Source of the DNA: a virus
Strand: one strand, 5' to 3'
IMG/VR virus record: IMGVR_UViG_3300023179_000295
Location: 1 to 34,487 of that record
DNA: 34,487 nucleotides
Under the pieces are notes generated by a model that worked only from the letters and a program-made list of their open reading frames with translations, had not been told where the DNA came from and ran no database searches. The position numbers were made by a program, and so were the translations under genes. Each line of letters opens with the position of its first letter. Position 1 is the stretch's first letter. Below, one piece after another: positions 5,984 through 32,037 of the stretch.

Positions 5984-6288
5984 AAGTCAAACTCACGATC
6001 GACACGGCACAAATGTCAAGCCTGCTCAACAGCATTCTTGAAACCTTGCGCAGCCAGCCTTGCATCGAAGGGCTTGAAGTCGAAACCCTGGTGCTCATGG
6101 ATTGGCACCAGCGCAACTTCATAAAAGTTCGCTTTGCTCCCCTACCCTGCAAAATATCCCTCAAACCGCACGAGGCGCTAAGCCTGCGCAGATTGCTTTT
6201 TGGGATTGATCTGAACGAACCGGTATTGGATATTTTCCGCAATGAGATTTGCGGAGAAATTCAAAAACAAATTCCAAACCTCATCTAA
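5980..6288 (+). CDS. early protein, unknown function
   Basis: A 102-residue protein whose start overlaps the initiator stop by ATGA. Mixed alpha/beta composition (MKVKLTIDTAQM at the start; LVLMDWHQRNFIKVRF in the middle). No family recognised. It lies between the initiator and a VRR-NUC nuclease, so it belongs to the DNA-metabolism group by position. Confidence 0.6.
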   Translation: MKVKLTIDTAQMSSLLNSILETLRSQPCIEGLEVETLVLMDWHQRNFIKVRFAPLPCKISLKPHEALSLRRLLFGIDLNEPVLDIFRNEICGEIQKQIPNLI

Positions 6289-6364
6289 AAACCGCCGCAG
6301 GGCTGCACAGAAGCCACACAGGCTCAATTTTGCCACCCTTTCGGCTATACTCGGACATCACGAC

Positions 6365-6751
6365 ATGAGAAAGTTCATTAGAAACGATTTGAGAGCGTTT
6401 TTTCCGCCCGAATCAGAAAGCGATCTCCAAGCCCGCTGTGTAGCTTGGTTCGACAAAAAGTATCCCGGATGTACCCAATTGCTCTTTGCCATCCCCAACG
6501 GTGGCCACCGCAACAAATCTACTGCCGGGATCTTGAAAAGCGAAGGCGTTCGTCGCGGCGTGGCTGATCTGTTTTTGGCCATTCCGATCATGGGAACGCA
6601 TGGGGTTTTTATTGAGATGAAGTTCAAGAAAGGCAAGCAATCGCCTGAGCAAATTGAATTTCAAACGCAAGTGGAAGCAATGGGATTTAAGTACATCGTA
6701 ACGAGGAGTGAGGACGATTTTAAAACCGCTATAACTGATTACTTATCATGA
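6365..6751 (+). CDS. VRR-NUC family nuclease (PD-(D/E)xK fold)
   Basis: A 128-residue nuclease from ATG 6365. Family marks are all present: an SESDLQ acidic start, AIPNGGHRNK, the GVRRGVADLF motif carrying the metal-binding Asp, and IEMKFKKG with the Glu-x-Lys pair, then SPEQIEF. Stand-alone phage VRR-NUC proteins are thought to cut branched DNA or resolve junctions before packaging, so Holliday-junction-type processing is the likely role. The frame is open back to ATG 6242, but that would overlap the preceding gene by 47 nt and add a basic tail not typical of the family. Its stop overlaps the next start by ATGA. Confidence 0.85.
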   Translation: MRKFIRNDLRAFFPPESESDLQARCVAWFDKKYPGCTQLLFAIPNGGHRNKSTAGILKSEGVRRGVADLFLAIPIMGTHGVFIEMKFKKGKQSPEQIEFQTQVEAMGFKYIVTRSEDDFKTAITDYLS

Positions 6752-7095
6752 GTTTACAAGCAAAAGCAGTGTTTCAGTTGAGCGAAACTGAAACCTTGAA
6801 ACAACTCGCCGCATTCATGGTGGATGAGTTAGAACACAGAGGGCTTGTCCTCAAATCTCGGGCAGAAGATGCACTGATTGAGGTGGCCGATATTCGCGCC
6901 AAACTTGGTCGCCGCCCAGGTCAAAGCATGGCCCCCAAAACCTTCGAGAAGTTGTTTCTCGAAACCGGACTACTAACAATCGTGGATCCAGCAAAAACAC
7001 CAAATCGCGCAAAACGCTACTGCTTACGATCCGAAGTTGATCGGGTTTTGAAGCAAGCCGAACGTGGCGGTTTGCCGGTGGTGGCTTACGAATAA
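6748..7095 (+). CDS. putative DNA-binding protein (winged-helix/excisionase-like)
   Basis: A 115-residue protein. Residues about 40-110 (VADIRAKLGRRPG...PKTFEKLFLETGL...NRAKRYCLRSEVDRVL) look like a MerR/excisionase-type winged helix: a short helix pair, a basic wing and a final helix ending in SEVDRVLK. This is a resemblance judged by eye. It is translationally coupled to the nuclease gene by ATGA. Excisionase or early regulator are the main options. Confidence 0.5.
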   Translation: MSLQAKAVFQLSETETLKQLAAFMVDELEHRGLVLKSRAEDALIEVADIRAKLGRRPGQSMAPKTFEKLFLETGLLTIVDPAKTPNRAKRYCLRSEVDRVLKQAERGGLPVVAYE

Positions 7096-7245
7096 TCCTC
7101 CCCTATTCACCCGCAATTCATCCTGCAATTTTTCCGGTTATGGCCCAATGAAAACCCGGAACAAGCGCAGCAATTTTCAAACGCGATTTTCTTGTAAAAT
7201 CCCCATTAATGGAAGATTTACGGAAAATCTAAGGAAAGTAAAAGA
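7096..7245 (+). other. 150-bp early intergenic stretch
   Basis: It holds a weak TTCCGG/CCGGAA hairpin (about 7133-7160). A 33-codon frame from ATG 7148 has a stop overlapping the next start (ATGA at 7246). Neither is convincing alone; no promoter of the TAnnTTTG type is seen. Confidence 0.3.
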
Positions 7246-8208
7246 ATGAAAAATCAAGTTATTAATCCACAAAAAAACAGCCGCAGTATTGATCGGCACG
7301 TGCTATTTGCCGAGCGGCTTATGCTCGGCGTGGCCGTGGTGATCACTTCGGCTGGCTTCTTGGTCTGGGGCTACAATGCCGCAGGCCAATACACCGAATC
7401 ATTTACTGTTAAGGCAGCATTTGGCATTTTAGCCGCTTTTATGTCGGCCATGGTTACCGACTTTGCATTTAGAAATTTTTTGGAGGAGGTAATCTTCCAA
7501 ATGTTGGTTGTTTTTTACCCAAAGGCCGAATCACACATCGAAAAACCAGGCTATATCAAAGCCATGGCATTTTTTCGCTGGGTAATTTTGGCTGCTATCG
7601 TGAGTTTACTGTTTTATGCCGATTTCATTTCGGTATACACGGTAAAAGATCCCATTGCAGCAGCAAGCAAACAAAAGCCTGTTGTTGATCCAGCCAAAGT
7701 AAGTGCCGAGGCGGCAAGTACTATGAACGAGCAGATCAAGCCACTAAAACAGCAGATCAGTGCCCTCAAAGCGGAAATTAAACAGGAGGAGAGTAGGGTA
7801 GAACGCCAAAATGCCAGCCTGGTGAAGTTGGTAAGCCAAGGGAACAATTGGGCACCCTCGCAACTGGCTGCAAAAAAAGCCAATGCGACCAAAGTGAAAC
7901 GTGCCAACCTCACCAAATTGGAGGATGCGTATACATCTGCCTTAAGTGGTAACAGCACAGCCCTGGCCACAATCAACAATCAGGCAATCACTACAAGCCT
8001 GGTAACAATTAAGGAAAACAACGATCAAAAAGCCGCTATGTCCAATTTATTCCAACTTTTTGGCGTAGGCAGCAAAATTATGACGGTCCTTTTTAGGATG
8101 TTCCTAGTGGTATCGTTCCTAAGTAAAAACCCCAACCTCGATGCCAATGGCGATGGCACTGTTGATGGCGAAGATGTTACCGCCGCTGCGTCCGGGGCTT
8201 TCAGGTAA
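7246..8208 (+). CDS. multi-pass membrane protein with coiled coil and EF-hand-like loop
   Basis: A 320-residue protein as written. Hydrophobic segments lie at about 23-43, 55-73, 109-128 and 270-292, with an Ala/Lys/Glu-rich coiled coil at about 150-230. After the last segment comes a textbook calcium-binding loop (D299, N301, D303, T305, D307, D310; DANGDGTVDGED), as in EF-hands and dockerins. The frame then ends abruptly beside a GGGG run. Shifting -1 gives a further 63 codons that end in a stop overlapping the next gene, so the intended product is probably about 383 residues. No family recognised. A membrane-bound phage factor (replication anchoring, exclusion) is conceivable but unproven. 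Confidence 0.65.
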   Translation: MKNQVINPQKNSRSIDRHVLFAERLMLGVAVVITSAGFLVWGYNAAGQYTESFTVKAAFGILAAFMSAMVTDFAFRNFLEEVIFQMLVVFYPKAESHIEKPGYIKAMAFFRWVILAAIVSLLFYADFISVYTVKDPIAAASKQKPVVDPAKVSAEAASTMNEQIKPLKQQISALKAEIKQEESRVERQNASLVKLVSQGNNWAPSQLAAKKANATKVKRANLTKLEDAYTSALSGNSTALATINNQAITTSLVTIKENNDQKAAMSNLFQLFGVGSKIMTVLFRMFLVVSFLSKNPNLDANGDGTVDGEDVTAAASGAFR

Positions 8209-10236: not shown

Positions 10237-10548
10237 TTAGTTGCGCCGCTTAGGCGCACTGCTCAAATACGTATTCACCCGCTCACGTAGCGTAGCAAGT
10301 TCCACGCTAAGGATTTCTTTTTGAGTAATACACTCTTTCACCTCATTATTTACCTGGGCAATTTTTCCTTCCAGTGCGGCTTTTGTGTTCAAGGCCTCCT
10401 GCTTTACGTCTTGCATCATACTATACAATACAAAACAGGCCGCCAGCAGCAGCATAACCTGAAAGGGCTGTTTACGCAGCGATTCTAGTATAACTTTGAA
10501 AAATTCAGTCATCACATCAAATTGTTGTGGTGGCGTAGTTCCAGGCAT
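10237..10548 (-). CDS. one-pass membrane protein with coiled coil (i-spanin- or holin-like)
   Basis: A 103-residue protein, last gene of the late operon. One hydrophobic segment (about 28-46, VMLLLAACFVLYSMM) follows a short N-terminus. A long coiled coil (about 48-92, VKQEALNTKAALEGKIAQVNNEV) and a basic tail end it. This N-in, C-out layout is that of inner-membrane spanins (Rz type); a holin or virion-assembly factor is also possible. ATG at codon 13 is an alternative start. End-of-operon position after the tail genes suits lysis. Confidence 0.5.
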   Translation of the reverse strand: MPGTTPPQQFDVMTEFFKVILESLRKQPFQVMLLLAACFVLYSMMQDVKQEALNTKAALEGKIAQVNNEVKECITQKEILSVELATLRERVNTYLSSAPKRRN

Positions 10549-10937: not shown

Positions 10938-11799
10938 TTAATAGCCTCCTATGTTTAGATACAGGTTGAAATAGGTGTTCTGCGGTAGTGCCGTACCCCT
11001 ATTTTTAATTTTGAATGATCCTGCCGCCAGTGAGGTGCAGTAAAATGATGCCATATTGGCCCGATATGTATCATTGCCATCCAGCACAGGAATACAAGTT
11101 GCTGTAAAGGCGGTACCAAGCGTAACCGTAAGAATATCGCCATTTAAGGCGGGTGCAGTTCCGGTCGTAAGTCCAATAATGATAAAGTTACTATGGCCAC
11201 TTGATGATAGAGTAGGGGAAGTTCCCGCGCCCGTGCCTGCAACAAGTGTGACGCCAGTGCTTTGATTTTGAAAAACATTACTCATGGTGCGACCGCTCAC
11301 ATCCAGCGCATGTAAGGGGGCATCTTTATTAATACCGACCCGCGCCGCAGAGTCGTTAGTAATGATAAGACCTTGATTTACCGTTCCACCTGGCAGCGAT
11401 GCACCAGGCGTAATCTTAAACTTGTCACTGTCCGAATTATCAAGACCCATCGCCGTGGTGACGACCGTACTTATGGTAAACTGAATAGTCGGATCACCCG
11501 CATTGGATGTGGCGCCAGATCCGCCCACCGAAATCGCTTCAATAGCATTTGCCGCCGATGTATTACTGACATTGATTAACGAGTTAATCATGTTATTGCT
11601 CACATTGGCGCTGCAACGAATAAACTCCGTAGCATTCGATAAAGCCCCTGCAAATACATTGATATAAGCCGCAGAGGTTCCTGTACCGATCACCAGCCGT
11701 TTATTGGTATTGTCCCAAGTAAATGCGCTGTCGTCATTAAGCGCCGAAACGTCCGATGCAAAAGGGATGCGTGTAGCGGTAAGTGAGCCAGTAAGCCCG
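10938..11799 (-). pseudogene. C-terminal fibre part of the tail-tip protein, -1 frame
   Basis: Open, fibre-like coding DNA in the -1 frame relative to the 14938 gene. Its upstream part, before any start, is plainly coding (GSLTATRIPFASDVSALN, then TWDNTNKRLVIGTG). It continues with Ser/Thr/Asn-rich beta repeats and a GINKDAPLHALDVSG motif typical of phage fibres. A GTG at 11693 could open a 251-residue product, but it lies inside the obvious continuation. One extra G in GGG (11797-11799) would fuse both parts into 1333 residues. One-base loss or frameshifting are the options. Confidence 0.7.
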
Positions 11800-14700
11800 A
11801 AAATGTGAAGTATTCCAGCGCATTGGCCGCTGCATTGGTGCGCAATAATTGCAATGAAGTACCCAACGCAGTAAGGCCTGTGCCGCCTTTTGCAACCCCA
11901 AGTGTACCGCCAATATTATTCAGCGTTAAGTTTGCCTCATTTACATCTACGCTGAATGCTTGCAAGGCAGCGCCCGTTGGAGTACCTCCAAGCGTTACCT
12001 TAGTTGATCCAGCCGTTACGTTTGATGGAGTTCCTGTAATACCCGTAAATGTAAAATACTCTAGTGCTGTACCTGCTGCATTGGTACGCAGTAATTGCAG
12101 TGAAGTACCTAACGCAGTAAGGCCTGTGCCGCCTTTTGCAACCCCAAGTGTACCGCCAATATTATTCAGCGTTAAGTTTGCCTCATTCACATCAATAGTG
12201 AATGCTTGTAATGCAGCGCCCGTTGGAGTACCACCCAGCGTTACCTTAGTGGATCCTGCCGTTACGTTTGATGGAGTTCCGGTAATACCCGTAAATGTAA
12301 AATACTCTAGTGCTGTACCTGCTGCATTGGTACGCAGTAATTGCAGTGAAGTACCTAACGCAGTAAGGCCTGTGCCGCCTTTTGCAACCCCAAGTGTACC
12401 GCCAATATTATTCAGGGTTAAGTTTGCCTCATTCACATCAATAGTGAATGCTTGTAATGCAGCGCCCGTTGGAGTACCACCCAGCGTTACCTTAGTGGAT
12501 CCTGCCGTTACGTTTGCTGGTGTAACAGTAGTTGGCGCAGAAGCCTTCCAGTCATTTGTACTAGCATCCCAGGTAAGTACGTGGCCATTTGTAACCCCAT
12601 CATAAGCCTCCCACTTTACGCTAGTCCTGTTAAATCGAAGCACGCTTCCCTTAGTCGTAGTAGGCAAAGAGAACGCATACGCAATCGGCTTTTTGATCAA
12701 ATACGACCCTTGCGGATAATTAGCCGTAAGCGTACCACTCACCGCAATTGCTGTAGCGCCAGCCGTAGGTCCGGCCGTAATGGTCAGGCTATCAAATTGG
12801 CCGGTTACCGGGTTCACAATGGTAATGATATCATTGATCGCGTAATCATTACCCGTAAGCGCTGTCACTACTGGCAGACTGGTAATACTTCCCGTGGCCA
12901 CCGGTGCGCTCAGTGCGTTGTTACTCACAGGATACAGTACCGCAGGTGGGGGAGAGCTGCCAAATCCGGGATTTCCACTGGTCACCGGTGGAGTGTTGCC
13001 CGTAGTAGGGTTTCCGTTCCCGGCAAATATTGGGATGTTATTATTCCCCAATTGTATCACTTTCACCGGCGTACTATTCACGCCACCGGTGCCGTAATTG
13101 ATCTCATAGAAATCACCGGCTAATTCATCATCACTTGCCCGCCAGGTGCCGCCCTGGAAAAGCCAACTCACACCGTCTGTAACGAATTTTCGATACAGCA
13201 CAATGCTACCATAGGCCACCGTGCTCATTTTCCGAATTGGCGTATATTGACCGCGCAAAATAGTGATGGCTAGTAGATCGCTCAGTTTTTTGTTCTTCGC
13301 TTCTGATCCTATGCCCCAATTCCCCGTTACCACCCAGTTGCTACCCACTTTGCGCCGCACCCGGCCCACGCTGTTGGTGCTGGTTCCCGTGCCAATGCGG
13401 GTATCATACGTTTCTATGATGTTATTACCTGCATCACCGGTGGCGGTGTATTGCGTAATATCCTCCTTTGCATCCGGCGTACCCTGGTCGTACAACTCCA
13501 GCCAAATGTTGGGGATTTGGTGCCACACATTGATCACACTTGTAGCGATGGTGCCAGCCTCCCAGGCCTTTTCAATCGCATGTAATTCAAGGGTGAATAA
13601 GTTATCCCCGCCATCCTGCACAAGCGGCTGCGTAAGTATGTTAATGCTGGTGCTCAGGCCTACGTTACTATTGGGAATCGGATTGATAATTACATGCAAG
13701 TAAAAATACCCCGCCGTTGCACTCCACTGGCCAGCAGTATAGTTTATCTTGTTCCCTGGAATATCTTTCGTATAGGTATTCACCCAATACCGCAGCCCAA
13801 TGCGTATTTGCACCCGAAACACAGCATACACCATGTTGTTCTGGTTTCCGGAGTAGGATGCATTGATTACCTGAATGCTCAAATCGCCCGTGGCTTTGAT
13901 TACACTATTCCCGCCACTGCTATCAATCTCCTGCGTAAATGATCCGCCAGGGAACGATCCACCGTAAGGATTGCTCACAATCGTACCCAACTGGTACATA
14001 TTGCGCCGGTTGAACACATTGTAATTGACAATCACCTTTTTCAGGGCTGGGTAATAATCCCAGGTACCACCCTGGCCACTATTTCTGGCGCCGCTTTCCG
14101 TGCGGTTCAATGTATTTTGTGATCCGTAAGCGGAAAAAGTCAGGTACGATCCAGTCTTTGCGTATTTCCTGCCCACATAGTTGCTCGTGCGGTAACTTGG
14201 CTGCTCTATCCAGTACACACCATCCACCATCATAATACGGGCATCAAATGCCGTAAGTATGTTATCCAGCACATCATAGCAACTCAGCACGTCTTTTTCA
14301 GTACCGCCACTCGTGTGAAAATCATAAAAAGCAATATGGTCCACGCCGTACACATTCAGCGGATCGGTAGCATTGGCCGGTGTTACATTTTCATCCCACC
14401 AATCTACCGACGTTCTGAAAAACTCATCACCACTGGCATACAGCGCCGAAGATGGTATTTTCGTAAGGCAGTTTTTAATATGTTCTACGAAAGTTTTCGT
14501 ACCAGTGTACAAAGTGCCCGCATCGTAATACGGCACGTTTTTGAGCGCACCAAGGCCGCATATTGCTTTTATGGTGAATTGATATGGGTAGTTCGCATCC
14601 TCTTGTTCGGTATTATCGGCAATAATCACCCCGGTCCAGAATAGGGTAGGGGAGGATGCGCCCGTAGTAACTTTCAGCGTAAATTGATCCTCTTTACTCG

Positions 14701-14938
14701 TACGTAGATCGGCAATGATCTGTGCATGCGTAGAGTTTTCAATCAGCATGTCAAAAGTTAACTCACCGCCCATAATCCGAGTAGTCTTTTTCTCAGCCTG
14801 GCCCGATATGCGCTGCTCAAAAAGCCTGCTGCTTACATTGAAAGTCGTAGCAGTTCCCGAAAATGTAGAATCCCATATTTCCAGCGTGTATACTACGCCT
14901 TTGAGGCTTGGTGCCGTGCATGTAAATCGTTTTGCCAT
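11690..14938 (-). CDS. tail tip / baseplate protein with C-terminal repeat fibre
   Basis: A 1082-residue protein as written. The first half (about 1-600) resembles the large tail-tip proteins that follow the tape measure in Bacteroidota siphophages. The middle (about 640-790) is Pro/Gly-rich and carries fibre-like segments. From about residue 800 come three copies of an 82-residue repeat (TLNNIGGTLGVAKGGTGLTA core), the GGTG pattern typical of trimeric fibres. The frame derails after FTFSG in the last copy and ends in about 35 out-of-frame residues; the real C-terminus is the -1 frame down to 10938. Likely role: tail tip and receptor contact. It follows the tape measure by 1 nt. Confidence 0.75.
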   Translation of the reverse strand: MAKRFTCTAPSLKGVVYTLEIWDSTFSGTATTFNVSSRLFEQRISGQAEKKTTRIMGGELTFDMLIENSTHAQIIADLRTSKEDQFTLKVTTGASSPTLFWTGVIIADNTEQEDANYPYQFTIKAICGLGALKNVPYYDAGTLYTGTKTFVEHIKNCLTKIPSSALYASGDEFFRTSVDWWDENVTPANATDPLNVYGVDHIAFYDFHTSGGTEKDVLSCYDVLDNILTAFDARIMMVDGVYWIEQPSYRTSNYVGRKYAKTGSYLTFSAYGSQNTLNRTESGARNSGQGGTWDYYPALKKVIVNYNVFNRRNMYQLGTIVSNPYGGSFPGGSFTQEIDSSGGNSVIKATGDLSIQVINASYSGNQNNMVYAVFRVQIRIGLRYWVNTYTKDIPGNKINYTAGQWSATAGYFYLHVIINPIPNSNVGLSTSINILTQPLVQDGGDNLFTLELHAIEKAWEAGTIATSVINVWHQIPNIWLELYDQGTPDAKEDITQYTATGDAGNNIIETYDTRIGTGTSTNSVGRVRRKVGSNWVVTGNWGIGSEAKNKKLSDLLAITILRGQYTPIRKMSTVAYGSIVLYRKFVTDGVSWLFQGGTWRASDDELAGDFYEINYGTGGVNSTPVKVIQLGNNNIPIFAGNGNPTTGNTPPVTSGNPGFGSSPPPAVLYPVSNNALSAPVATGSITSLPVVTALTGNDYAINDIITIVNPVTGQFDSLTITAGPTAGATAIAVSGTLTANYPQGSYLIKKPIAYAFSLPTTTKGSVLRFNRTSVKWEAYDGVTNGHVLTWDASTNDWKASAPTTVTPANVTAGSTKVTLGGTPTGAALQAFTIDVNEANLTLNNIGGTLGVAKGGTGLTALGTSLQLLRTNAAGTALEYFTFTGITGTPSNVTAGSTKVTLGGTPTGAALQAFTIDVNEANLTLNNIGGTLGVAKGGTGLTALGTSLQLLRTNAAGTALEYFTFTGITGTPSNVTAGSTKVTLGGTPTGAALQAFSVDVNEANLTLNNIGGTLGVAKGGTGLTALGTSLQLLRTNAAANALEYFTFSGLLAHLPLHASLLHRTFRRLMTTAHLLGTIPINGW
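11800..12540. repeat. three 246-bp tandem repeats in tail-tip gene
   Basis: The marker GTAAGGCCTG recurs at 11871, 12117 and 12363, exactly 246 bp apart (82 codons). The second and third copies are almost identical; the first has more substitutions. In-frame repeats of this kind allow fibre length to change by unequal recombination. Confidence 0.9.
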
Positions 14939-20024: not shown

Positions 20025-20363
20025 TCAAATTCTACTTTCACACTGGAGTTGCAGGTATTGCCTGCGGCCAATTTCCCCAATGTTGCGTATATCATAATCA
20101 ACACCCTTATAGGTGACTTTATGCTTGGCAGTGATGCCGGCGCGGTACCTGATCGTGTAATCCACCCGGGTAATGCTCGTTTGTTGATCGGCAATATATG
20201 TTTCACTATTGCCGGTACTCGGAAACTCTACCTTAGCCATACAGGTATGCACGCAAGTCCAGGTAATTATTTCGGCACCACTCAGACTGAGCGTTGTCGA
20301 TGCCTCATATATTTCAATGCGGCGATTCAGGTCCCCAATCAATACTTTTGCCTTTGCCATCAC
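20025..20363 (-). CDS. head closure / head-tail adaptor protein
   Basis: A 112-residue beta-barrel adaptor of the SPP1 gp16/HK97 gp7 kind: IGDLNRRIEIYEAS at the start, WTCVHTCMAKVEF in the middle, TRVDYTIRYRAGITAKHKV and a C-terminal GVDYDIRNIGEIGRRQYLQL. These are common marks of phage head-tail joining proteins. It closes the portal after packaging. Start overlaps the connector stop by 4 nt. Confidence 0.85.
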   Translation of the reverse strand: MMAKAKVLIGDLNRRIEIYEASTTLSLSGAEIITWTCVHTCMAKVEFPSTGNSETYIADQQTSITRVDYTIRYRAGITAKHKVTYKGVDYDIRNIGEIGRRQYLQLQCESRI

Positions 20364-20947
20364 GCACTAAATTTAAACCAGCCAGCCAACAGCATTTCGC
20401 TGGCGCGTGGTAGCCTTACAACGTTATCCTCTCGATTCTGATCCATATCACCCACCATCAGCAGGATCGCCTGCTTGATTGGTTGTGGTATGAATGCCGG
20501 GCCATCGCCGAAGCCTGCCTGGTATTCAATCACTACGCTGTTGGGTAGCGATTGCGACTTGGGCCATGACTGATTGTGTTTAGGTATCACAAAGGCTGTT
20601 TGCCGTACAATACCCGTGGTGTACAGCGTATTACTCCAAGTTTGCTCCGCTCCGTTATCATCAATGTACTTCACGCTGGTAATACTTATTACTGGCGATA
20701 TGCGCAGATTGATACCTATATTGTCATCGGCTGGAAAGCCAGCGTGGTATTCCTTGATTGTTTGCGTAAGTAGTGCTACGCCGTACATTTTTTCAATATA
20801 GGATGCAGCAGCCTGCACATAGGATTGGATAACAAGATCCTCGCTGGTAATATCATCCAGCCGCAAATGCGTGCGTACCATCTCCATTGTGATGGGTAGG
20901 TCGGCATTTGCAGTAGTTACCTGGTATCCTTGATATGTATCAGCCAT
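20360..20947 (-). CDS. gp6-like head-tail connector protein
   Basis: A 195-residue connector. An N-terminal helical part (ITMEMVRTHLRLDD...DLVIQSYVQAAASYIEKMYG) and the strand/loop segment NSVVIEYQAGFGDGPAFIPQPIKQAILLMVGDMDQNRED are characteristic of the gp6 connector family. It docks under the portal. In typical HK97 gene order it follows the capsid gene directly; here about 6.7 kb of other genes lie between. Confidence 0.9.
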   Translation of the reverse strand: MADTYQGYQVTTANADLPITMEMVRTHLRLDDITSEDLVIQSYVQAAASYIEKMYGVALLTQTIKEYHAGFPADDNIGINLRISPVISITSVKYIDDNGAEQTWSNTLYTTGIVRQTAFVIPKHNQSWPKSQSLPNSVVIEYQAGFGDGPAFIPQPIKQAILLMVGDMDQNREDNVVRLPRASEMLLAGWFKFSA

Positions 20948-20952
20948 TGTTT

Positions 20953-21201
20953 TTATTTGGGGGCATTGCTGCCGGGTGCGTCATCTTCTTGTTCGGGCAG
21001 TTCTACTTGCCGGGCATTGGGCTTACTGGCCACCTCCACAATCATCAATACCTGACCGGGTGCAATGGCATTATGTACCTGCGTTACATTAGTCACAGCA
21101 TCAGCCACCGTGGCCATCGCCTCAAATCCGATTTTGCCAGTGCTGCGTGCCAAATCTGCCAGTTCAAGCAGCGTGCGCAGGTTTTCTTTCGTGATAACCA
21201 T
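20953..21201 (-). CDS. small protein, unknown function
   Basis: An 82-residue protein, helical at first (LRTLLELADLARSTGKIGFEAMATVAD), then beta-like, ending in an acidic Pro-rich tail. Its ATG overlaps the TAA of the protease gene (TAATG), so it is probably translated with it. No family recognised. It is the last gene before the connector. Confidence 0.5.
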   Translation of the reverse strand: MVITKENLRTLLELADLARSTGKIGFEAMATVADAVTNVTQVHNAIAPGQVLMIVEVASKPNARQVELPEQEDDAPGSNAPK

Positions 21202-22475
21202 TACAGATTGAAGGCCTTTTTGGTGACATTTATGGCGCTATCGGCATATAAGCGCGACCTTGATTGAAGTCGCACAATATTGGCCGCTTGCGCTTTTGTG
21301 ATGCTCACTTTTTCTACCACCGGTGGCGTAGTCGTGCCAGAGGGGTACCGCGCTGCAATAAAGGCTTTATCGGCTGGGCTGATTACTTGCCCGCCCGGTA
21401 TTGCCACCTTATCACAGGTCCAACTGGAGGGAATAGGGTAGTGCATAATGCTGAATGCATCATGCTCGGTTGTAATCACCTGGCCCACCGTGTAAGGTGT
21501 CAACACGTTGAATTGGATTGTTTCGAGATTCCAATTGTTTGGCGGCCCGCTCAAGTCTTTCACAACTTGCGCCTGGTTCCAGCAAATAGCCTTGGTGGGA
21601 TTTTGATGCTCGTGTAGCAATCCGAGTGCGTGGCCAGCCTCATGATCATTGGCGGCTTGCTCTACCCATCCAATATTCATGGTGGGTTCGTTTTGTGGAA
21701 TACTCTGGCAATCAATACCGACATAACTCCAGGAGCCATCCGATTCATCAAATTTCACACGGATATTATAGGGACCTGCCGATGGATAGGAAAAGGTAAG
21801 ATTCACCGGTACAGATTTCCAGTGCTCAAATGCGAGTTTTACCATTTGTTTTTGGCTATTCGTACCGCCCCATGGAAAGCCAATTTTCAGTTCTGCGCTT
21901 TGTGGCCACCATTTATTGATATAGCCCATTGCCCGATCATTCACGCCACCCGATACTGCGGGTAATGTGCTGATCGTTTTGCAAAAATGTGCAGTGGTAT
22001 CGTTTTGAGTGGGCGCGGTATTGGTACATGCGGTAACACCAAGGCTTGCGCCTACAATAAGCACAATTATGCCAGTAGCGCCGGGCAATTTTACCTGGTT
22101 ATTTTTTATGAAAAGGAAATAGACCAAGGATAGCAGCGACAACCCGGCTGTAATGATAGAAGCCCAGTTACCACTGGCAAATGCTTTAGCCAAATCGCCA
22201 ATTGCAGGCACCAGTGGCGCTGCCGCAGGTATGGCTGCGCCAATTACAGCACTTAGCAATGATAGCGTATTAGGGCTTGTAGCCCATGCTTTTACGCCAA
22301 CAAATTTGGCCGATACCAAAAAGTTGCGCACGGTAAAAAAGGCACCCACGATGCCGAAAATTGCTACGACAATTGAAGTTGCGCTAGGCTCTTGCAATCC
22401 CCATAAAGAGCCTACGAGCAAAAGTAAATTTACCCAAAAATTGGTGCCTAAAAGGCTTTCTTTTAAATTTTTCAT
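21201..22475 (-). CDS. multi-pass membrane protein fused to astacin/matrixin-like zinc protease
   Basis: A 424-residue two-part protein. Residues 1-150 hold about five hydrophobic segments (near 13-29, 34-54, 70-92, 103-121, 132-148) that look holin-like. The last ends in GVTAC, a lipobox-like site at about 147-151. Residues about 180-395 are a metzincin: zinc site H278-E279-x2-H282-x5-H288 in HEAGHALGLLHEHQNP and Met-turn SIMHYP with M344, as in bacterial astacin/matrixin-like enzymes. The intervening GPPNNW segment also recurs in that group from memory. The protease domain should face the periplasm or the cell surface. A fusion of this kind in a phage late operon is unusual. Possible roles: lysis aid, digestion of surface proteins, virion-release factor. 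The substrate is unknown. Confidence 0.8.
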   Translation of the reverse strand: MKNLKESLLGTNFWVNLLLLVGSLWGLQEPSATSIVVAIFGIVGAFFTVRNFLVSAKFVGVKAWATSPNTLSLLSAVIGAAIPAAAPLVPAIGDLAKAFASGNWASIITAGLSLLSLVYFLFIKNNQVKLPGATGIIVLIVGASLGVTACTNTAPTQNDTTAHFCKTISTLPAVSGGVNDRAMGYINKWWPQSAELKIGFPWGGTNSQKQMVKLAFEHWKSVPVNLTFSYPSAGPYNIRVKFDESDGSWSYVGIDCQSIPQNEPTMNIGWVEQAANDHEAGHALGLLHEHQNPTKAICWNQAQVVKDLSGPPNNWNLETIQFNVLTPYTVGQVITTEHDAFSIMHYPIPSSWTCDKVAIPGGQVISPADKAFIAARYPSGTTTPPVVEKVSITKAQAANIVRLQSRSRLYADSAINVTKKAFNL

Positions 22476-22513: not shown

Positions 22514-23038
22514 TTATTGCTTAAAAAGTTGATCGAAAGTTAGCCAGTTCCCAAGGGTATAGCCAGCACTTATGGCCGCCGATTGAATGAGTATTCTACC
22601 AGGTATATCCCACCATTTCCGGCCCGATTTTGGGCGCACAATGGGAATGGTGCAGTATATAGTTGCCGCGCTGATTGCGCTGGATAATGCGATGTTGTTG
22701 AGCGCGAATGTCAGGTGCTTGGCGTCCGTTAATTGCACGGGCACACCTGGGCGCATGTACTTATTTTCCCAGCTGATGGATGGGTCAAAATATTGACGGT
22801 TAGCGCCTGGAAACCGCTTGAAAAATACATCCTTGCGGTATTGGAGCGCTTCGTGCAGGCCCCATGCGGTGCCTGCGATGAAAGAAAGCGAAAAGGCTGG
22901 AATGGCTTTTTTCAGTTCCGGCTTTATCCAGTTAAGTTTTGGCGGATGTTCATTTTCTACCAAGGCGCTAGTAGTGTACTGGGAAAATGCAGATAGGCTG
23001 CATAAGAGAAACGCAAATATGTATATTGCTTTCATCAT
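22514..23038 (-). CDS. signal-peptide-bearing membrane-associated protein
   Basis: A 174-residue protein. Residues 1-20 are a Sec signal (IYIFAFLLCSLSAFSQ, cut before or after Q). Then comes a polar stretch, AIPAFSLSFIAGTAWGLHEAL as a first hydrophobic segment, DPSISWENKYMRPG, and two more hydrophobic segments (about 108-130, 146-165). The FDPSISWENKY pattern resembles Bacteroidota membrane proteins found on mobile elements; this is recall, not a search. Its signal-peptide DNA is nearly identical to that of the next gene (23035-23649). Confidence 0.65.
   Translation of the reverse strand: MMKAIYIFAFLLCSLSAFSQYTTSALVENEHPPKLNWIKPELKKAIPAFSLSFIAGTAWGLHEALQYRKDVFFKRFPGANRQYFDPSISWENKYMRPGVPVQLTDAKHLTFALNNIALSSAISAATIYCTIPIVRPKSGRKWWDIPGRILIQSAAISAGYTLGNWLTFDQLFKQ
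22985..23036 (-). repeat. duplicated signal-peptide DNA, copy 1
   Basis: About 52 bp covering the start of the 22514-23038 gene matches 23599-23650 at all but about four positions. The flanking mature domains are unrelated, so the segment has been copied between genes as a secretion cassette. Confidence 0.85.
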
Positions 23039-23649
23039 AATGAAGTTGTGCGCGTAAGCGTGGTGTTTCCGGCAAAATCGCTGAAAACCTTGTTATCCAG
23101 GTTATATAAATACAACACGCTCGACCCTGATGGATAACCGGAAATCCTTACCGCACCTTCCCCCCATAACTGAAAAACCCGCGCCGCATCCGTACCAATC
23201 ACAATTTGCAATGTGCCATTCCCCGCTTTGGTAACGGTTGCTGTTTTTGTGACGCCCGAATCTTTGAATGATAGCGTTTCCCCGACCCATTTACTTTGTA
23301 ACTTTTCTTGTGTTCGCGCAAATACCCCGCGCCCGGTGGATGCTGCGCAGGTATTGTCATATCTGCGAATATTGGCGGTTGTGGTATTGCGGTTTACAAC
23401 TAGAGCGACGGCTGCTGCAAGTTGGCGGCCTTCAGTGTTGGCTGCGTTCAGGTATATGTTGGCTACTGCCAACGTGTCACCAATGAGCGTTTTTACCGTT
23501 GAGGTTTCACCGTTGCTGTAAGTGATTGCACGGGTTTCGAAATAAGTTCCAGACGTATTACTGATAAACGAGGTATCAGTCACAACTGTGCGCTGTGCAA
23601 ATGCAGATAGGCTGCATAAAAGAAATGCAAATATGTATATCGTTTTCAT
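23035..23649 (-). CDS. secreted protein, paralogue A
   Basis: A 204-residue protein with a clear signal peptide (MKTIYIFAFLLCSLSAFAQ, cut about residue 18-19). The mature part starts RTVVTDTSFISN and has ITYSNGETSTVKTLIGDT, matching DYSDGTYSESRALLGDT of the upstream 23646-24251 gene; the two are diverged tandem paralogues. The rest is beta-rich with an Ala-rich helix after the shared motif. No known family; secretion to periplasm or surface is the only firm inference. Confidence 0.65.
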   Translation of the reverse strand: MKTIYIFAFLLCSLSAFAQRTVVTDTSFISNTSGTYFETRAITYSNGETSTVKTLIGDTLAVANIYLNAANTEGRQLAAAVALVVNRNTTTANIRRYDNTCAASTGRGVFARTQEKLQSKWVGETLSFKDSGVTKTATVTKAGNGTLQIVIGTDAARVFQLWGEGAVRISGYPSGSSVLYLYNLDNKVFSDFAGNTTLTRTTSL

Positions 23650-23650
23650 C
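23599..23650 (-). repeat. duplicated signal-peptide DNA, copy 2
   Basis: Partner of 22985-23036; covers the signal peptide and start codon of the 23035-23649 gene. The high identity at silent positions as well points to a recent copy event rather than selection on the peptide alone. Confidence 0.85.
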
Positions 23651-24251
23651 GTTGTAAAATGATTGATTTATCAATGCTTGCCCAATACCCCTCCTTTACA
23701 CGGTATAGAATATTATTGCCCGTTACTGGATAATTGACCAAGCGCATCATATTTCCGAATACAATCATTGTTCGGGCTGTGCCGCCTTGTGGTAGTAGCC
23801 TTCGCCGCTTATTTGTAGATAGCACGGGAAAAGTTACGGCTGTGGTTGCGCCATTGTAAGTCAATGCCCAACTCCCAGAGGTAAATTCCTGCGTATAGGT
23901 ATCCATAAGAAAAGTAATCGGCGAGCGCCCCAATAGCGCTGTAATCAGCGTATCCTTTTTTACTGACTCGTTTGTGAATTGCCGGGCGTTCATGGCAATG
24001 ATTGCGGCGGCGGAAATTTCATTTGCCCGCTTTTCGATGGCGGATACCACACTATTGAACGTGGCAGTTGTATCGCCCAATAGGGCGCGGCTTTCGCTGT
24101 AAGTGCCGTCGCTGTAATCAATTCGGCTGACGGTATAGCCGATACTGCCAGAAACTACTTGGTATGTAGTATCCTTTACGATTGTGGGCGTTTGCGCTTG
24201 CGCTTGTAGTGCTGAAAAAATCAGCATGAAAGCAAAAAGTAGTTTTTTCAT
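23646..24251 (-). CDS. secreted protein, paralogue B
   Basis: A 201-residue protein started at ATG 24251 (MKKLLFAFML); the longer frame upstream runs Cys-rich into the fibre gene and is rejected. The signal peptide ends SALQAQAQ. The mature part opens TPTIVKDTTYQ and shares a YSxGxxSxxRxLxGDT motif with the following paralogue. The C-terminus is beta-rich. It starts 12 nt after the fibre stop, so it may act with the fibre (chaperone, attachment factor) or be an independent secreted trait. Unknown family. Confidence 0.65.
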   Translation of the reverse strand: MKKLLFAFMLIFSALQAQAQTPTIVKDTTYQVVSGSIGYTVSRIDYSDGTYSESRALLGDTTATFNSVVSAIEKRANEISAAAIIAMNARQFTNESVKKDTLITALLGRSPITFLMDTYTQEFTSGSWALTYNGATTAVTFPVLSTNKRRRLLPQGGTARTMIVFGNMMRLVNYPVTGNNILYRVKEGYWASIDKSIILQR

Positions 24252-24262
24252 GTTTGTTTGGT

Positions 24263-26989
24263 TTACCATGTAGTTAATGCACTGCGTTTCCAGCCCGCAG
24301 CAGTTTTGACATAGATATAGTTTGCATCCCATGCTATGTCGCCTGTGTTACCATTTGTATCACTGCTTGATGTGGGAGTGTATGTGGAGCGTAGGCGTAG
24401 TTGGGTGTAGCCGTTTGTGCCATTAACATCCAAAAGATCTGTAGGCGCGTTTGTTCTGATCCCAATAAAGCCATCATCACGTATCACAAATGCATTATTT
24501 GTACCGCTAGAATTGTGAAACTGCGCTGTCCATGTAGATGATGTTGCGCCAGAGCCTTGAGTATAAAAACGGCTTGGCAGTGCGCTTCCCGTTGCCATAC
24601 CTATGCCCACGTTCCCATTTGTTGAACCAAAGCGAACATCACCCACCAATGTCTCGATGGCTCGGTGATCTGTACCAGTGAGCGAAGTTGTGTTAGGATT
24701 GTAATAAATACCTGTATATTTCCCTGAATATGTCCCGGTATTGTTAATAAGTGGGCGTATGTTTAATGCTATGCCGTTAGTTGTACCAGATGATGCCGTT
24801 GAACCTACAAGCCCATTATTATTTGATCCTCCTACTTGTAGTATCCCTTCAGAAGCAACGCCGACCCCATCATTAAATCGCGCAACATTGCTACCGTTGA
24901 TATTAAAAGTTGTATTTGACCTAGTATTGACAGTTATATCTGCACCTGTCCCGAATTGAATACTTCCTGCGTATCCACCATCAACAGTTCGACTACCGAA
25001 TAAAGCGTCCTCCGTAAGGCGGACGCTACGATTCAATGTGGAATTTTCAACCTGCAAAAAATCCTTAACGAAAGTTCTGCCAACTGTTAAGTTTGATCCG
25101 GCGCTGTTGTCTGCCAAGCGAGCTGCAACGCTGACCTGCCTAACCGCCGTATATGTGCCACCTGCTGTGATCGCTCCGGCAGTGATGGAAGCCATAAATG
25201 GTCCACGAGCCAATTGAATATTTGTGCTTGAAAGATTCGTGCTTTGCACAAAGTAGTCCGTCAACGTATAAAAGTTGACGGGTAAAGGTTGGCCGCTTTG
25301 CGTCAAACGAACTATGTCTCCCGCCTTGAAAGTATTGGCAGTGGTTGCAATATCGGCTGAACCATTGGTGAAAGTCAATGTTACAGTTTGTGCTGACGAG
25401 AATTGCAACGCGGGGAAACTAGATGTAGTACCGCCTGCTTGGAATCGCTCAAAATCAGTACTTGCATTATTTTGTAACAACCAACGGCCATCGCTAGGAG
25501 AAGAAAATTTAAGTTGCCCAGATAAGCCAATTTTTGCCCCATCCCAAGTAAAATTTGAACTTCCCGCAATTGTGCCAGATGCCCAATAAGATATTTGCCC
25601 ATCAACACCTGAGCCAGAAAGCCCGCCATCAATAGCCGGTGCCCAAATATAACCATCCCATTTCAAAACCTGCCCGCTACTTGCTCCCATTCGAGCAAGA
25701 TGCCGCGCCCACACAGATTGATTATCAATATTTGATTGTTCAATCACATTAGTCCCCATCTTGGTACTATCCGAAACGGCACCTGATGCCAACTTTGCGC
25801 TCGTTACTGCGCTATTGGCAATTTTAGCGGCTGTCACGGCGTTTGCTGCAATATCTACCGCCCATATAGCGCCGTCTGCAATTCGTGTAGTTGTGATTGC
25901 TGCTGCGGCAACTTTGCTTGAATCCCCTACTGCGCCTGTTGCTAATTTCGCTGCCGTCACTACCCCCGCCGCAATCGTAGACGCCGCGCTACCCGGCCCT
26001 GTGGCTGTTACGTCACCCGTGAGGGCTGATATTCCATTCCCCGTCACCGTAAACGATGGATAAGTACCGGACACGGCAACGCTGCCAGCGCCCGTAATTG
26101 CCACCGTTTGATCGGGTGCGCTATTTGTAATAGTTTTTGTAATTGTTCCCGATATGCTTATGCCCGTGCCATTTGCAAGTGCCTGAATAGGCGCAATGCT
26201 TGACACTGCCAGCGTTTTAGCGGGCTGTAAATCGCTACTTAGGGATAGTTCCAAGTTTGCGCCATTTACGCGCAGCGTGTCAATGGCTTGAATTTCGTTC
26301 GTTACCGATTGGTCAGGCGCAATGGTTGTAACTGGAACGGTGCGCGTTGCCCCCGGATCAATTATGCGAAGGTTGCCGCCGCTTACGTCGAAACCTGTGT
26401 TTAATTCATTGCTTGTGCTGCCGTCTCCTTCATTACCCGTGACGGTTATAGTTGTGCCGGACGTACTTACACTATTTATTCCGCCACCCGCAATAGTTAC
26501 CGATCCGCCCGAATTGGAAAGCGTTGCCGTATTTGTGGCGACTGAAAGCGTTTGTAGTTCGTTTGTAGTGGATAGGTCGCCCGTATTACTAATAACATTG
26601 CTGCCGGAAATGGCAATGCCGGTGCCAGCCGAATAAGTAACCCCACCAGCCTTCAGCCAAGCCGATCCACTCCAAACATATATTTCTGGCGGATTTGCAT
26701 TATTCACAGCAACATATGAATCTGTTTGGCTAGGCGTATAAGCCGGTGCCGTAGAACCGGATGTTTGATCTACGCCGCGACCTTGCAAATCCCAAATGCG
26801 GGCTTTTCGATTCCAAAAATATACCCGTTTCGACACGGTATCAATAGCAATCTCACTGGCTGTATTTACAGCAGGCGTCCAATTGGGTGCACCAGCGCTA
26901 TACGATACGCCGGGTGTTTTTACCTGGTTACTTTGCGCCAGGCAAAAAGTGGTGAGTGCCATAAAAACAATTATAAGTATATTTTTCAT
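24263..26989 (-). CDS. large fibre-like protein with Sec signal peptide
   Basis: A 908-residue Thr/Ser/Asn/Gly-rich fibre. Residues 1-18 (MKNILIIVFMALTTFCLA) are a typical cleavable signal peptide, odd for a virion protein. After it come a PNWTPAVNTASEIAIDT/YFWNRKARIWD segment, GTGIAISG repeats, a string of AAKIANSAVTSAKLASGAV-like pseudo-repeats (about 330-420) common in phage fibres, then GNVGIGMATGSALPSR, LLDVNGTNGYTQLRLRS and DANYIYVKTAAGWKRSAL at the C-terminus, as in Bacteroidota tail fibres. Either a fibre assembled after export, a surface adhesin, or a false signal. The start is well placed 4 nt inside the preceding gene. Confidence 0.75.
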   Translation of the reverse strand: MKNILIIVFMALTTFCLAQSNQVKTPGVSYSAGAPNWTPAVNTASEIAIDTVSKRVYFWNRKARIWDLQGRGVDQTSGSTAPAYTPSQTDSYVAVNNANPPEIYVWSGSAWLKAGGVTYSAGTGIAISGSNVISNTGDLSTTNELQTLSVATNTATLSNSGGSVTIAGGGINSVSTSGTTITVTGNEGDGSTSNELNTGFDVSGGNLRIIDPGATRTVPVTTIAPDQSVTNEIQAIDTLRVNGANLELSLSSDLQPAKTLAVSSIAPIQALANGTGISISGTITKTITNSAPDQTVAITGAGSVAVSGTYPSFTVTGNGISALTGDVTATGPGSAASTIAAGVVTAAKLATGAVGDSSKVAAAAITTTRIADGAIWAVDIAANAVTAAKIANSAVTSAKLASGAVSDSTKMGTNVIEQSNIDNQSVWARHLARMGASSGQVLKWDGYIWAPAIDGGLSGSGVDGQISYWASGTIAGSSNFTWDGAKIGLSGQLKFSSPSDGRWLLQNNASTDFERFQAGGTTSSFPALQFSSAQTVTLTFTNGSADIATTANTFKAGDIVRLTQSGQPLPVNFYTLTDYFVQSTNLSSTNIQLARGPFMASITAGAITAGGTYTAVRQVSVAARLADNSAGSNLTVGRTFVKDFLQVENSTLNRSVRLTEDALFGSRTVDGGYAGSIQFGTGADITVNTRSNTTFNINGSNVARFNDGVGVASEGILQVGGSNNNGLVGSTASSGTTNGIALNIRPLINNTGTYSGKYTGIYYNPNTTSLTGTDHRAIETLVGDVRFGSTNGNVGIGMATGSALPSRFYTQGSGATSSTWTAQFHNSSGTNNAFVIRDDGFIGIRTNAPTDLLDVNGTNGYTQLRLRSTYTPTSSSDTNGNTGDIAWDANYIYVKTAAGWKRSALTTW

Positions 26990-31252: not shown

Positions 31253-31321
31253 CTATCGTTTTCTCCACATAAGCGAAAGCGCCATACACAGCCCAATTAA
31301 AATCACTCCTGCAAGGATCAT
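31253..31321 (-). CDS. 22-residue membrane peptide overlapping lysin gene
   Basis: A tiny frame (MILAGVILIGLCMALSLM then WRKR) whose ATG overlaps the lysin stop by ATGA. It is one hydrophobic segment with a basic end, the layout of membrane toxins and minimal holin-like peptides. Direct coupling to a lysin gene makes a lysis role reasonable. It is too short for confident gene calling. Confidence 0.4.
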   Translation of the reverse strand: MILAGVILIGLCMALSLMWRKR

Positions 31322-32037
31322 TGGCCAAAAAATTTTACAAAATCATCACCCGCGATGATGGCCGTGGTGAATACAAATTTCTTGTTTGAAAGATAACGGG
31401 GATCGGTTGCCATTAACTGGATAAAACTCATGTGCTCTGGCCACCATTGGCCAACCAAGCATCCCGCCGACCAGTTACCTACATTTCCACCAATATATCC
31501 AGGCCTGGTACCATGCTGATTGATACCATAGCCTTGCGTTACGGCATCACCGGTGCGTAAGCCATCTTTATTGAAATCACGATGTACCGGAATTGGCCCA
31601 AACTGTACCAGGGCGGGATGCGGCGTAAGACTGCGGGCTTTTTTGTGAAATCCCATGCGCCAGGATGTGTATTGGCCAAATTTAATACGGGCAACACCAA
31701 ATGCTTTGCGTGCTGCCGGTGAAATAGTTGCCTGGTATCCAGGCTCTGTAGTACATACGGCTACAAATGCCATGTACGGTATGCCGCTTGGATTGAATGC
31801 AAAAACGCAGCGTAGATCATTCCACTCATCCTTTTTATCTGAATTTAGTGTAAAATTGAGGTTCATACCCTCAATGTATACAATGTTTAAATGGCCTTGA
31901 TCCTTTGAGTATGTATAGCCTTTATTGTCAAAATATGCTACAATTTTGGCAGCAATCTCCATATTTTGATCAAAAACTGGCAAAATTGGTTTAGTATTAA
32001 ACTCAATTTGTTGCACTCGAGGCAATATTTGATTCAT
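31318..32037 (-). CDS. putative endolysin, L,D-transpeptidase-like fold
   Basis: A 239-residue protein. The C-terminal half carries GINQHGT (H175) and NWSAGC (S190, C193), in the order and spacing of the HGT/SxGC active site of L,D-transpeptidase (YkuD)-type enzymes; in phages such domains are thought to act on peptidoglycan cross-bridges. An EF-like run (VHRDFNKDG, about 151-159) precedes it. The N-terminal about 100 residues may be a separate domain (IYIEGMNLNFTLNSD). No signal peptide, so a holin or the coupled 22-residue peptide would be needed. It lies between large terminase and portal, an uncommon place for a lysin; a virion-associated role in DNA entry is an alternative. Confidence 0.65.
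   Translation of the reverse strand: MNQILPRVQQIEFNTKPILPVFDQNMEIAAKIVAYFDNKGYTYSKDQGHLNIVYIEGMNLNFTLNSDKKDEWNDLRCVFAFNPSGIPYMAFVAVCTTEPGYQATISPAARKAFGVARIKFGQYTSWRMGFHKKARSLTPHPALVQFGPIPVHRDFNKDGLRTGDAVTQGYGINQHGTRPGYIGGNVGNWSAGCLVGQWWPEHMSFIQLMATDPRYLSNKKFVFTTAIIAGDDFVKFFGQ

Follow-up and report, generated by a model that had tools for sequence, protein, structure and literature searches.

A holin-like module and a metzincin protease in one phage gene

The stretch of DNA analysed here (the window; 34,487 bp) is a whole virus record. Its minus strand carries genes for a terminase, a portal protein, a prohead protease, a capsid protein and connectors, and the phage looks temperate, with an integrase-like gene read from the sequence at 558-1889. 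In the late operon, behind four consecutive signal-peptide genes (22514-26989, minus strand; in one of these the signal peptide starts from an internal Met), lies a gene which, as judged from its sequence, joins a holin-type protein to a zinc protease in this phage of Bacteroidota (Table 1). The fusion of a holin-like domain to a metzincin had been proposed in a first-pass annotation, and both halves were recovered in our analysis: homologues of residues 1-129 exist as separate proteins in the lysis regions of phages, and residues 186-380 form an M12A metzincin domain.

Table 1. Location of the fusion gene, of the segments of its product and of selected genes in the window.
Feature	Position	Strand	Basis or remark
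Holin-like/metzincin fusion, whole gene	21201..22475	-	single ATG-initiated frame without stops, 424 aa
Four-helix holin-like module, residues 1-129	22089..22475	-	stand-alone homologues in other phages
Signal-peptide-like stretch, residues 124-150	22026..22106	-	positive n-region KNNQVK, fifth hydrophobic segment, lipobox VTA-C150
Linker and pro-segment, residues 151-185	21921..22025	-	AHFC165K, candidate cysteine switch
M12A (myroilysin-type) metzincin catalytic domain, residues 186-380	21336..21920	-	profile, sequence and fold matches
Zinc site HEAGHALGLLHEH, residues 278-290	21606..21644	-	zinc-site residues unchanged across the 55 relatives aligned
SIMHY, Met-turn and Tyr ligand, residues 342-346	21438..21452	-	motif and alignment
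C-terminal helical tail, residues 381-424	21204..21335	-	conserved in L002
Upstream neighbour, signal peptide, phage family with SWENKY motif	22514..23038	-	homologues in 15/396 genomes, one order
Head-tail connector, next but one downstream of the fusion	20360..20947	-	PF05135, phrog_442
Candidate endolysin	31318..32037	-	phrog_33083 'endolysin' 8e-12, phrog_3000 5e-25
Candidate inner-membrane spanin-like protein, one TM and coiled coil	10237..10548	-	homology 8e-4 (weak), L098/L115

The protease half is a myroilysin-type metzincin

The catalytic domain matches the Pfam Astacin family (PF01400) at E 3.6e-8, with 33.7 bits against a gathering score of 22.5, so that the absence of any metzincin hit in profile searches, which the first-pass annotation had allowed for, is excluded. 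Among the solved structures searched, the sole strong match is myroilysin (E 6.6e-37 over residues 179-379), with 38% identity in the aligned catalytic domain. The AlphaFold model superposes on mature myroilysin (5zjk) with a TM-score of 0.90 and an RMSD of 1.7 Å, and its pLDDT is above 85 across most of the catalytic domain; the linker and residues 1-70 are modelled with low confidence, and we make no structural claim for them, and a helix at residues 394-421 of the C-terminal tail is modelled with low to medium confidence. No comparable phage match to the protease fold was found in a library of viral structures.

The HEXXHXXGXXH signature followed by Glu is present as HEAGHALGLLHE (residues 278-289), with H278, H282 and H288 as zinc ligands, E279 as the catalytic Glu and E289 as the family Glu; these residues and M344 are invariant across 55 aligned relatives, and Y346 is nearly so. 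The complete astacin/matrixin-type site that had been proposed from HEAGHALGLLHEH and SIMHYP (residues 342-347) is no chance motif, since the Pfam, myroilysin and AlphaFold superposition results agree. Two features set the protein apart: A280 stands at a position usually occupied by Phe and, compared to myroilysin, the phage proteins are eight residues shorter immediately ahead of HExxH. We considered whether this gap denotes a broken enzyme and rejected this explanation, given the equally short spacing in the natural relatives L008, L010 and L014 and the strong selection on the gene. The EXXRXDRD sequence that follows the zinc motif in animal-type astacins (PMC9848320) is also absent, the fusion protein reading EHQNPTKA and myroilysin EHQHPLTN at this place; because myroilysin lacks it as well, this feature marks animal astacins and not the bacterial branch.

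Ahead of the catalytic domain, Cys165 lies within AHFCK and is a candidate cysteine switch of the myroilysin type. At least one upstream Cys is present in 76 of the 88 relatives (a count that includes the lipobox Cys), and in most relatives a Cys precedes the first conserved Trp at a comparable distance. Myroilysin itself (Myroides; MEROPS M12A; PDB 5GWD, 5CZW, 5ZJK) shares with the phage protein the HExxHxxGxxHE and SIMHY motifs and the Cys before the catalytic domain. In contrast with the fusion, it is encoded by the host as a separate enzyme, carries a signal at its own N-terminus and has no holin module, and the phage copy, with its eight fewer residues before the zinc helix, clusters with signal-peptide-less relatives.

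The AbsR1 profile (cd04327; NF050131) also matches the protease at 2e-36, far below the 650-bit cut-off of the model, and places Streptomyces SCO6992/AbsR1, for which no membrane part is reported, in the same metzincin branch as the phage domain, which is unlike it in being fused to one. SCO6992, a distant relative, showed no caseinolytic activity when assayed in vitro, and beta-glucuronidase activity was reported for it instead (PMC9705864). NCBIfam NF050131, named 'beta-glucuronidase AbsR1', is a metzincin-family profile, and its glycosidase name stems from one paper, which used an MBP fusion made in E. coli.

The membrane half belongs to a family of stand-alone holin-like proteins

Lysis by phages of Gram-negative bacteria is described with a holin, an endolysin and a spanin. 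Residues 1-150 of the fusion were left unnamed by the family libraries searched, and no PHROG holin matched the window protein. Searches with residues 1-129, and with profiles built from the sequences recovered, identified stand-alone relatives in phages of the Chitinophagales type. One is a 142-aa protein on the viral contig L116 (33% identity over 120 aa, pairwise E 3e-15), which stands after exported fibre-type genes. The relative in L098 (130 aa) is followed by a GH19-like endolysin (phrog_181, 3e-4), and its match to the holin family phrog_1356 is weak (0.031); just upstream of the holin gene, both L098 and L115 encode a membrane protein with a coiled coil, to which the product of 10237-10548 in the window shows weak homology. 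The remaining relatives are a 150-aa protein in L114, a prophage with an integrase and a GH108 endolysin, and a 199-aa frame in L182 (E 4.5e-8), where RecT and a CHAP-like endolysin are also encoded. Profile scans for this holin family gave no matches class-wide, and two known members and one new one order-wide.

The stand-alone proteins of L116, L114, L098 and L182 present the same helix pattern as residues 1-129 and share with them invariant NF, W, N, P and N positions, but they have neither the fifth segment nor the protease, measure 130-150 aa apart from the frame in L182, and stop at the point that corresponds to the onset of the fifth hydrophobic segment in the fusion. The four transmembrane segments within residues 1-129 fit a holin, a small protein with two to four such segments, and the assignment as holin is founded on this helix count and on the lysis-gene neighbours of the relatives. 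Whereas those in L098, L114 and L182 have an endolysin gene adjacent or within the cassette, the candidate endolysin of the window lies apart, between the terminase and portal genes. The latter protein has no Pfam match, and an SAGC sequence after HG is reminiscent of YkuD-type active sites.

The fifth hydrophobic segment is predicted to export the protease

Five 19-residue hydrophobic peaks were located in the fusion protein (residues 9-27, 31-49, 71-89, 105-123 and 132-150), with mean hydropathies of 1.4-2.2. The earlier description of about five membrane segments and a lipobox-like GVTAC is therefore accurate, as all five peaks lie within residues 1-150 and GVTAC spans residues 146-150. Lys and Arg residues number 2/0/3/1/2 in successive loops, followed by a near-neutral tail, and the positive-inside rule predicts from this pattern a cytoplasmic N-terminus, five transmembrane segments and a protease located in the periplasm. 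For the stand-alone relatives, whose four segments are followed by a basic C-terminus, both termini would lie inside. Since five segments put the protease outside and four leave the C-terminus inside, the fifth segment would be what exports the protease.

This segment agrees with the lipobox pattern [LVI][ASTVI][GAS]C, a positive stretch (KNNQVK) preceding a hydrophobic one that ends in VTAC150. It differs from the signal peptide of a lipoprotein in not being N-terminal: the signal is internal, following four transmembrane helices, and the segment lies 130 residues into the chain. We infer that Lgt/LspA may process the protein at Cys150.

A second copy of the protease indicates a maintained phage gene

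An independently assembled contig (L002; IMGVR 3300016471_000199) encodes residues 253-424 at 88% identity, followed downstream by the same genes as in the window: an ORF of 80-82 aa, the connector and more tail genes. Comparison of the two copies over these residues yielded a dN/dS of 0.062, alongside values of 0.051 for the capsid, 0.039 for the portal and 0.051 for the connector (capsid and portal were compared with L092, a contig from the same metagenome as L002). Purifying selection like that on the capsid and portal genes, together with recurrence in L002, thus identifies the protease as a maintained phage gene.

Because L002 begins downstream of the junction near residue 150, the fusion point rests on one assembly. 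No second contig spanning residues 130-253 was found among the viral contigs searched, none of which holds the exact junction DNA, and the same fusion was not detected in viral contigs, in 84,980 species genomes (peptide-pattern scans) or in 50,697 phage records, in scans sensitive to close to moderate relatives only; nor was a fusion of a holin module to a metzincin found in the literature searched. An assembly join, raised in the first-pass annotation, is largely excluded by the recurrence of the protease half and downstream genes in L002, and not fully so, given that this contig starts at residue 253. That a separate holin gene and a separate metzincin gene were wrongly joined, as the lack of a second contig over residues 130-253 would permit, is nonetheless highly improbable: the join is in frame, with a signal-like segment exactly between the two domains, GC content is even along the whole gene, the flanks on either side match L002 and L092 (two contigs from one metagenome), and the holin relative in L116 comes after exported genes similar to those in the window.

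The protease is probably a captured signal-peptide-less enzyme

In a tree of catalytic domains, the window protein and L002 group with bacterial proteases that have no signal peptide (Nocardiaceae, Burkholderiales, Variovorax, Ruegeria and Thauera) with support of 96/96, and many of these relatives start a few residues before the HFC-type motif. The tree led us to reject an origin from a Bacteroidota lipoprotein myroilysin with a signal peptide. The affinity with signal-peptide-less enzymes makes the fifth segment and lipobox look like an added export device, and in the likely history a protease of this kind was captured downstream of a holin and joined to it through a new membrane segment. 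Of two syntenic prophages, L152 has the neighbour gene abutting the connector directly, and neither L152 nor L144 has a holin or a protease at the corresponding place, which indicates that the fusion is an insertion in the window lineage. In the 12 kb of L116 that were read, the holin is present without a protease at that place.

Myroilysin-type catalytic domains occur elsewhere on phage DNA, namely in L008, a Maribacter phage-like element that also encodes an integrase, MazG and SSB-like and methylase-like proteins, and beside terminase and portal genes in the viral contigs L003 and L004; unlike the window protein, these have no evident signal peptide, membrane segments or holin. Searching 50,697 annotated phage records with each of four queries gave no M12A relative. 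The genes in L004 (821-1687, plus strand) and L003 (485-1351, plus strand) lie on GC-rich contigs, and their zinc motif is altered to HEFGHMLDFGH, with the Gly shifted. The bacterial myroilysin-type proteases L009, L011, L015, L013, L026 and L012 (the last of 749 aa) are signal-peptide-less, with a pro-Cys near the N-terminus (HFC/WCF).

Exported proteases occur near holin-family genes in related phages

Two of the phages with holin-family genes encode another exported protease a few kb away from them: an S8 subtilase with a signal peptide in L114 (1e-32) and a reprolysin-like metzincin with a T9SS-type tail in L182 (1.7e-12). The former (11364-12893, minus strand) lies between exported fibre-type genes and the GH108 endolysin of this Chitinophagales-order prophage; the latter (6210-8015, plus strand; 601 aa, with the T9SS-type sorting tail) lies in the lysis region of a prophage, between the CHAP-like endolysin and holin-type genes. 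This recurrence, in a small sample viewed after the fact, is suggestive.

The statement in the first-pass annotation that membrane-anchored metzincins are not a known part of phage lysis or tail cassettes needs amending, as the metzincin locus mtz-tim has been published for a Listeria prophage (PMC8235301). There, mtz-tim lies downstream of holin-lysin and raises virion release about 5-fold, the metzincin and its lipoprotein partner sensitise cells to phage lysis in a manner that requires the active site, and the metzincin cleaves the partner (PMC8235301). As in the window, a phage-associated metzincin is tied to lysis genes and a lipoprotein, a predicted one in the window, is involved, with phage lysis enhanced in Listeria; in contrast to the fusion, Mtz-Tim consists of a separate secreted metzincin and a separate TIMP-like lipoprotein, in a Gram-positive host and with no holin fusion.

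A putative role in lysis and its alternatives

The fusion is best read as a complete holin-type module and a whole pro-protease combined in a late envelope protein of a temperate phage. We tentatively favour, at somewhat short of an even chance, an accessory lysis protease that would be exported by the holin, kept latent by Cys165, possibly freed at Cys150, and would cut envelope proteins at lysis. The four holin helices would leave the chain on the cytoplasmic side, and segment 124-150 would then act as an internal signal sequence that takes the protease through the inner membrane. On the far side, Cys150 may be lipidated and the chain cut there by Lgt/LspA, so that a lipid-anchored pro-protease separates from the holin; Cys165 would keep its zinc site inactive up to a cleavage event at the time of lysis. 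Once active, the protease would cut envelope proteins, whether outer-membrane/peptidoglycan tethers or surface proteins, which would ease endolysin action and virion release, and coupling to the holin would set protease timing to that of lysis.

Several lines of evidence point to this role: the holin homology, the endolysin or spanin-like neighbours of the relatives and the late-operon location; the metzincin fold, purifying selection, charge pattern and lipobox after the fifth segment; and the S8 subtilase of L114, the reprolysin-like metzincin of L182 and the Listeria precedent (PMC8235301). Against it stand the few genomic matches of the holin family and the weak PHROG match of a relative (0.031), the single assembly behind the fusion point and the lack of a protease at the corresponding place in L116, L152 and L144, as well as the absence of caseinolysis in SCO6992 (PMC9705864), the A280 replacement and the eight-residue gap.

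It is unlikely that the protease instead matures or sheds the phage's own exported proteins (22514-26989), with the holin module as a mere anchor. Their four genes, a fibre-like one included, do lie directly upstream, exported fibre-like genes accompany the exported proteases of L114 and L182, and the Listeria enzyme cleaves its partner lipoprotein (PMC8235301). However, L144, which carries the closest homologues (1e-62 for 23646-24332), keeps these exported genes although a protease is lacking at the matching position, which shows that they can do without one, and a complete holin-type module exceeds what an anchor requires. We regard as somewhat less likely still a surface accessory gene whose protease would destroy phage receptors or host surface proteins, for superinfection exclusion or nutrients for the lysogen. 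Such a role would suit a temperate phage and a relative of myroilysin, itself a secreted degradative enzyme, but the gene is part of the late structural operon, where it lies between exported genes and the head-tail connector, and not of a lysogenic region, models of defence proteins and defence systems gave no match, and the holin half would be left without a role. A holin whose non-catalytic protease domain only anchors or times it appears quite improbable: the eight missing residues, A280 and the negative caseinolysis result for SCO6992 (PMC9705864) would agree with it, yet the zinc ligands, Glu279, Met344 and Tyr346 are all kept in both phage copies, dN/dS is low, and the short segment is shared with L008, L010 and L014.

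A broader version of the lysis role, in which signal peptidase II would split a holin-protease polyprotein into two lysis proteins and exported proteases of unrelated clans (M12A, S8 and reprolysin) would generally serve Bacteroidota phages, which have a protein-rich envelope to break, as a lysis factor overlooked so far, is doubtful as a whole. If the first part were true, the product would be a latent lipoprotein metzincin with export and activation tied to the holin. What seems new is the domain fusion, apparently undescribed, the protease family and the role of a phage metzincin in lysis being already known. Together with the exported proteases beside the holin family in two prophages, the fusion suggests cleavage of envelope proteins as a further step in the exit of some Bacteroidota phages, much as mtz-tim of Listeria does for a Gram-positive host; this, if true, would add an enzyme class to phage lysis. 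With one catalytic Glu, one lipobox Cys and one switch Cys, the protein would make a clean test case, and it would illustrate how a signal-peptide-less protease could gain export by joining a membrane protein.

Further observations concern the fibre genes of the window. A 908-aa fibre-like protein is encoded among the four Sec signal-peptide genes at 22514-26989 (minus strand), and exported fibre-like genes of a similar kind are present in L114, L116, L144 and L182. A separate fibre frame (10938-14938, minus strand) breaks near 11790, through a frameshift that is real, programmed or a sequencing error, and goes on as ORF 10938-11693 in another frame; the break falls just after three repeats of 246 nt at 11796-12533.
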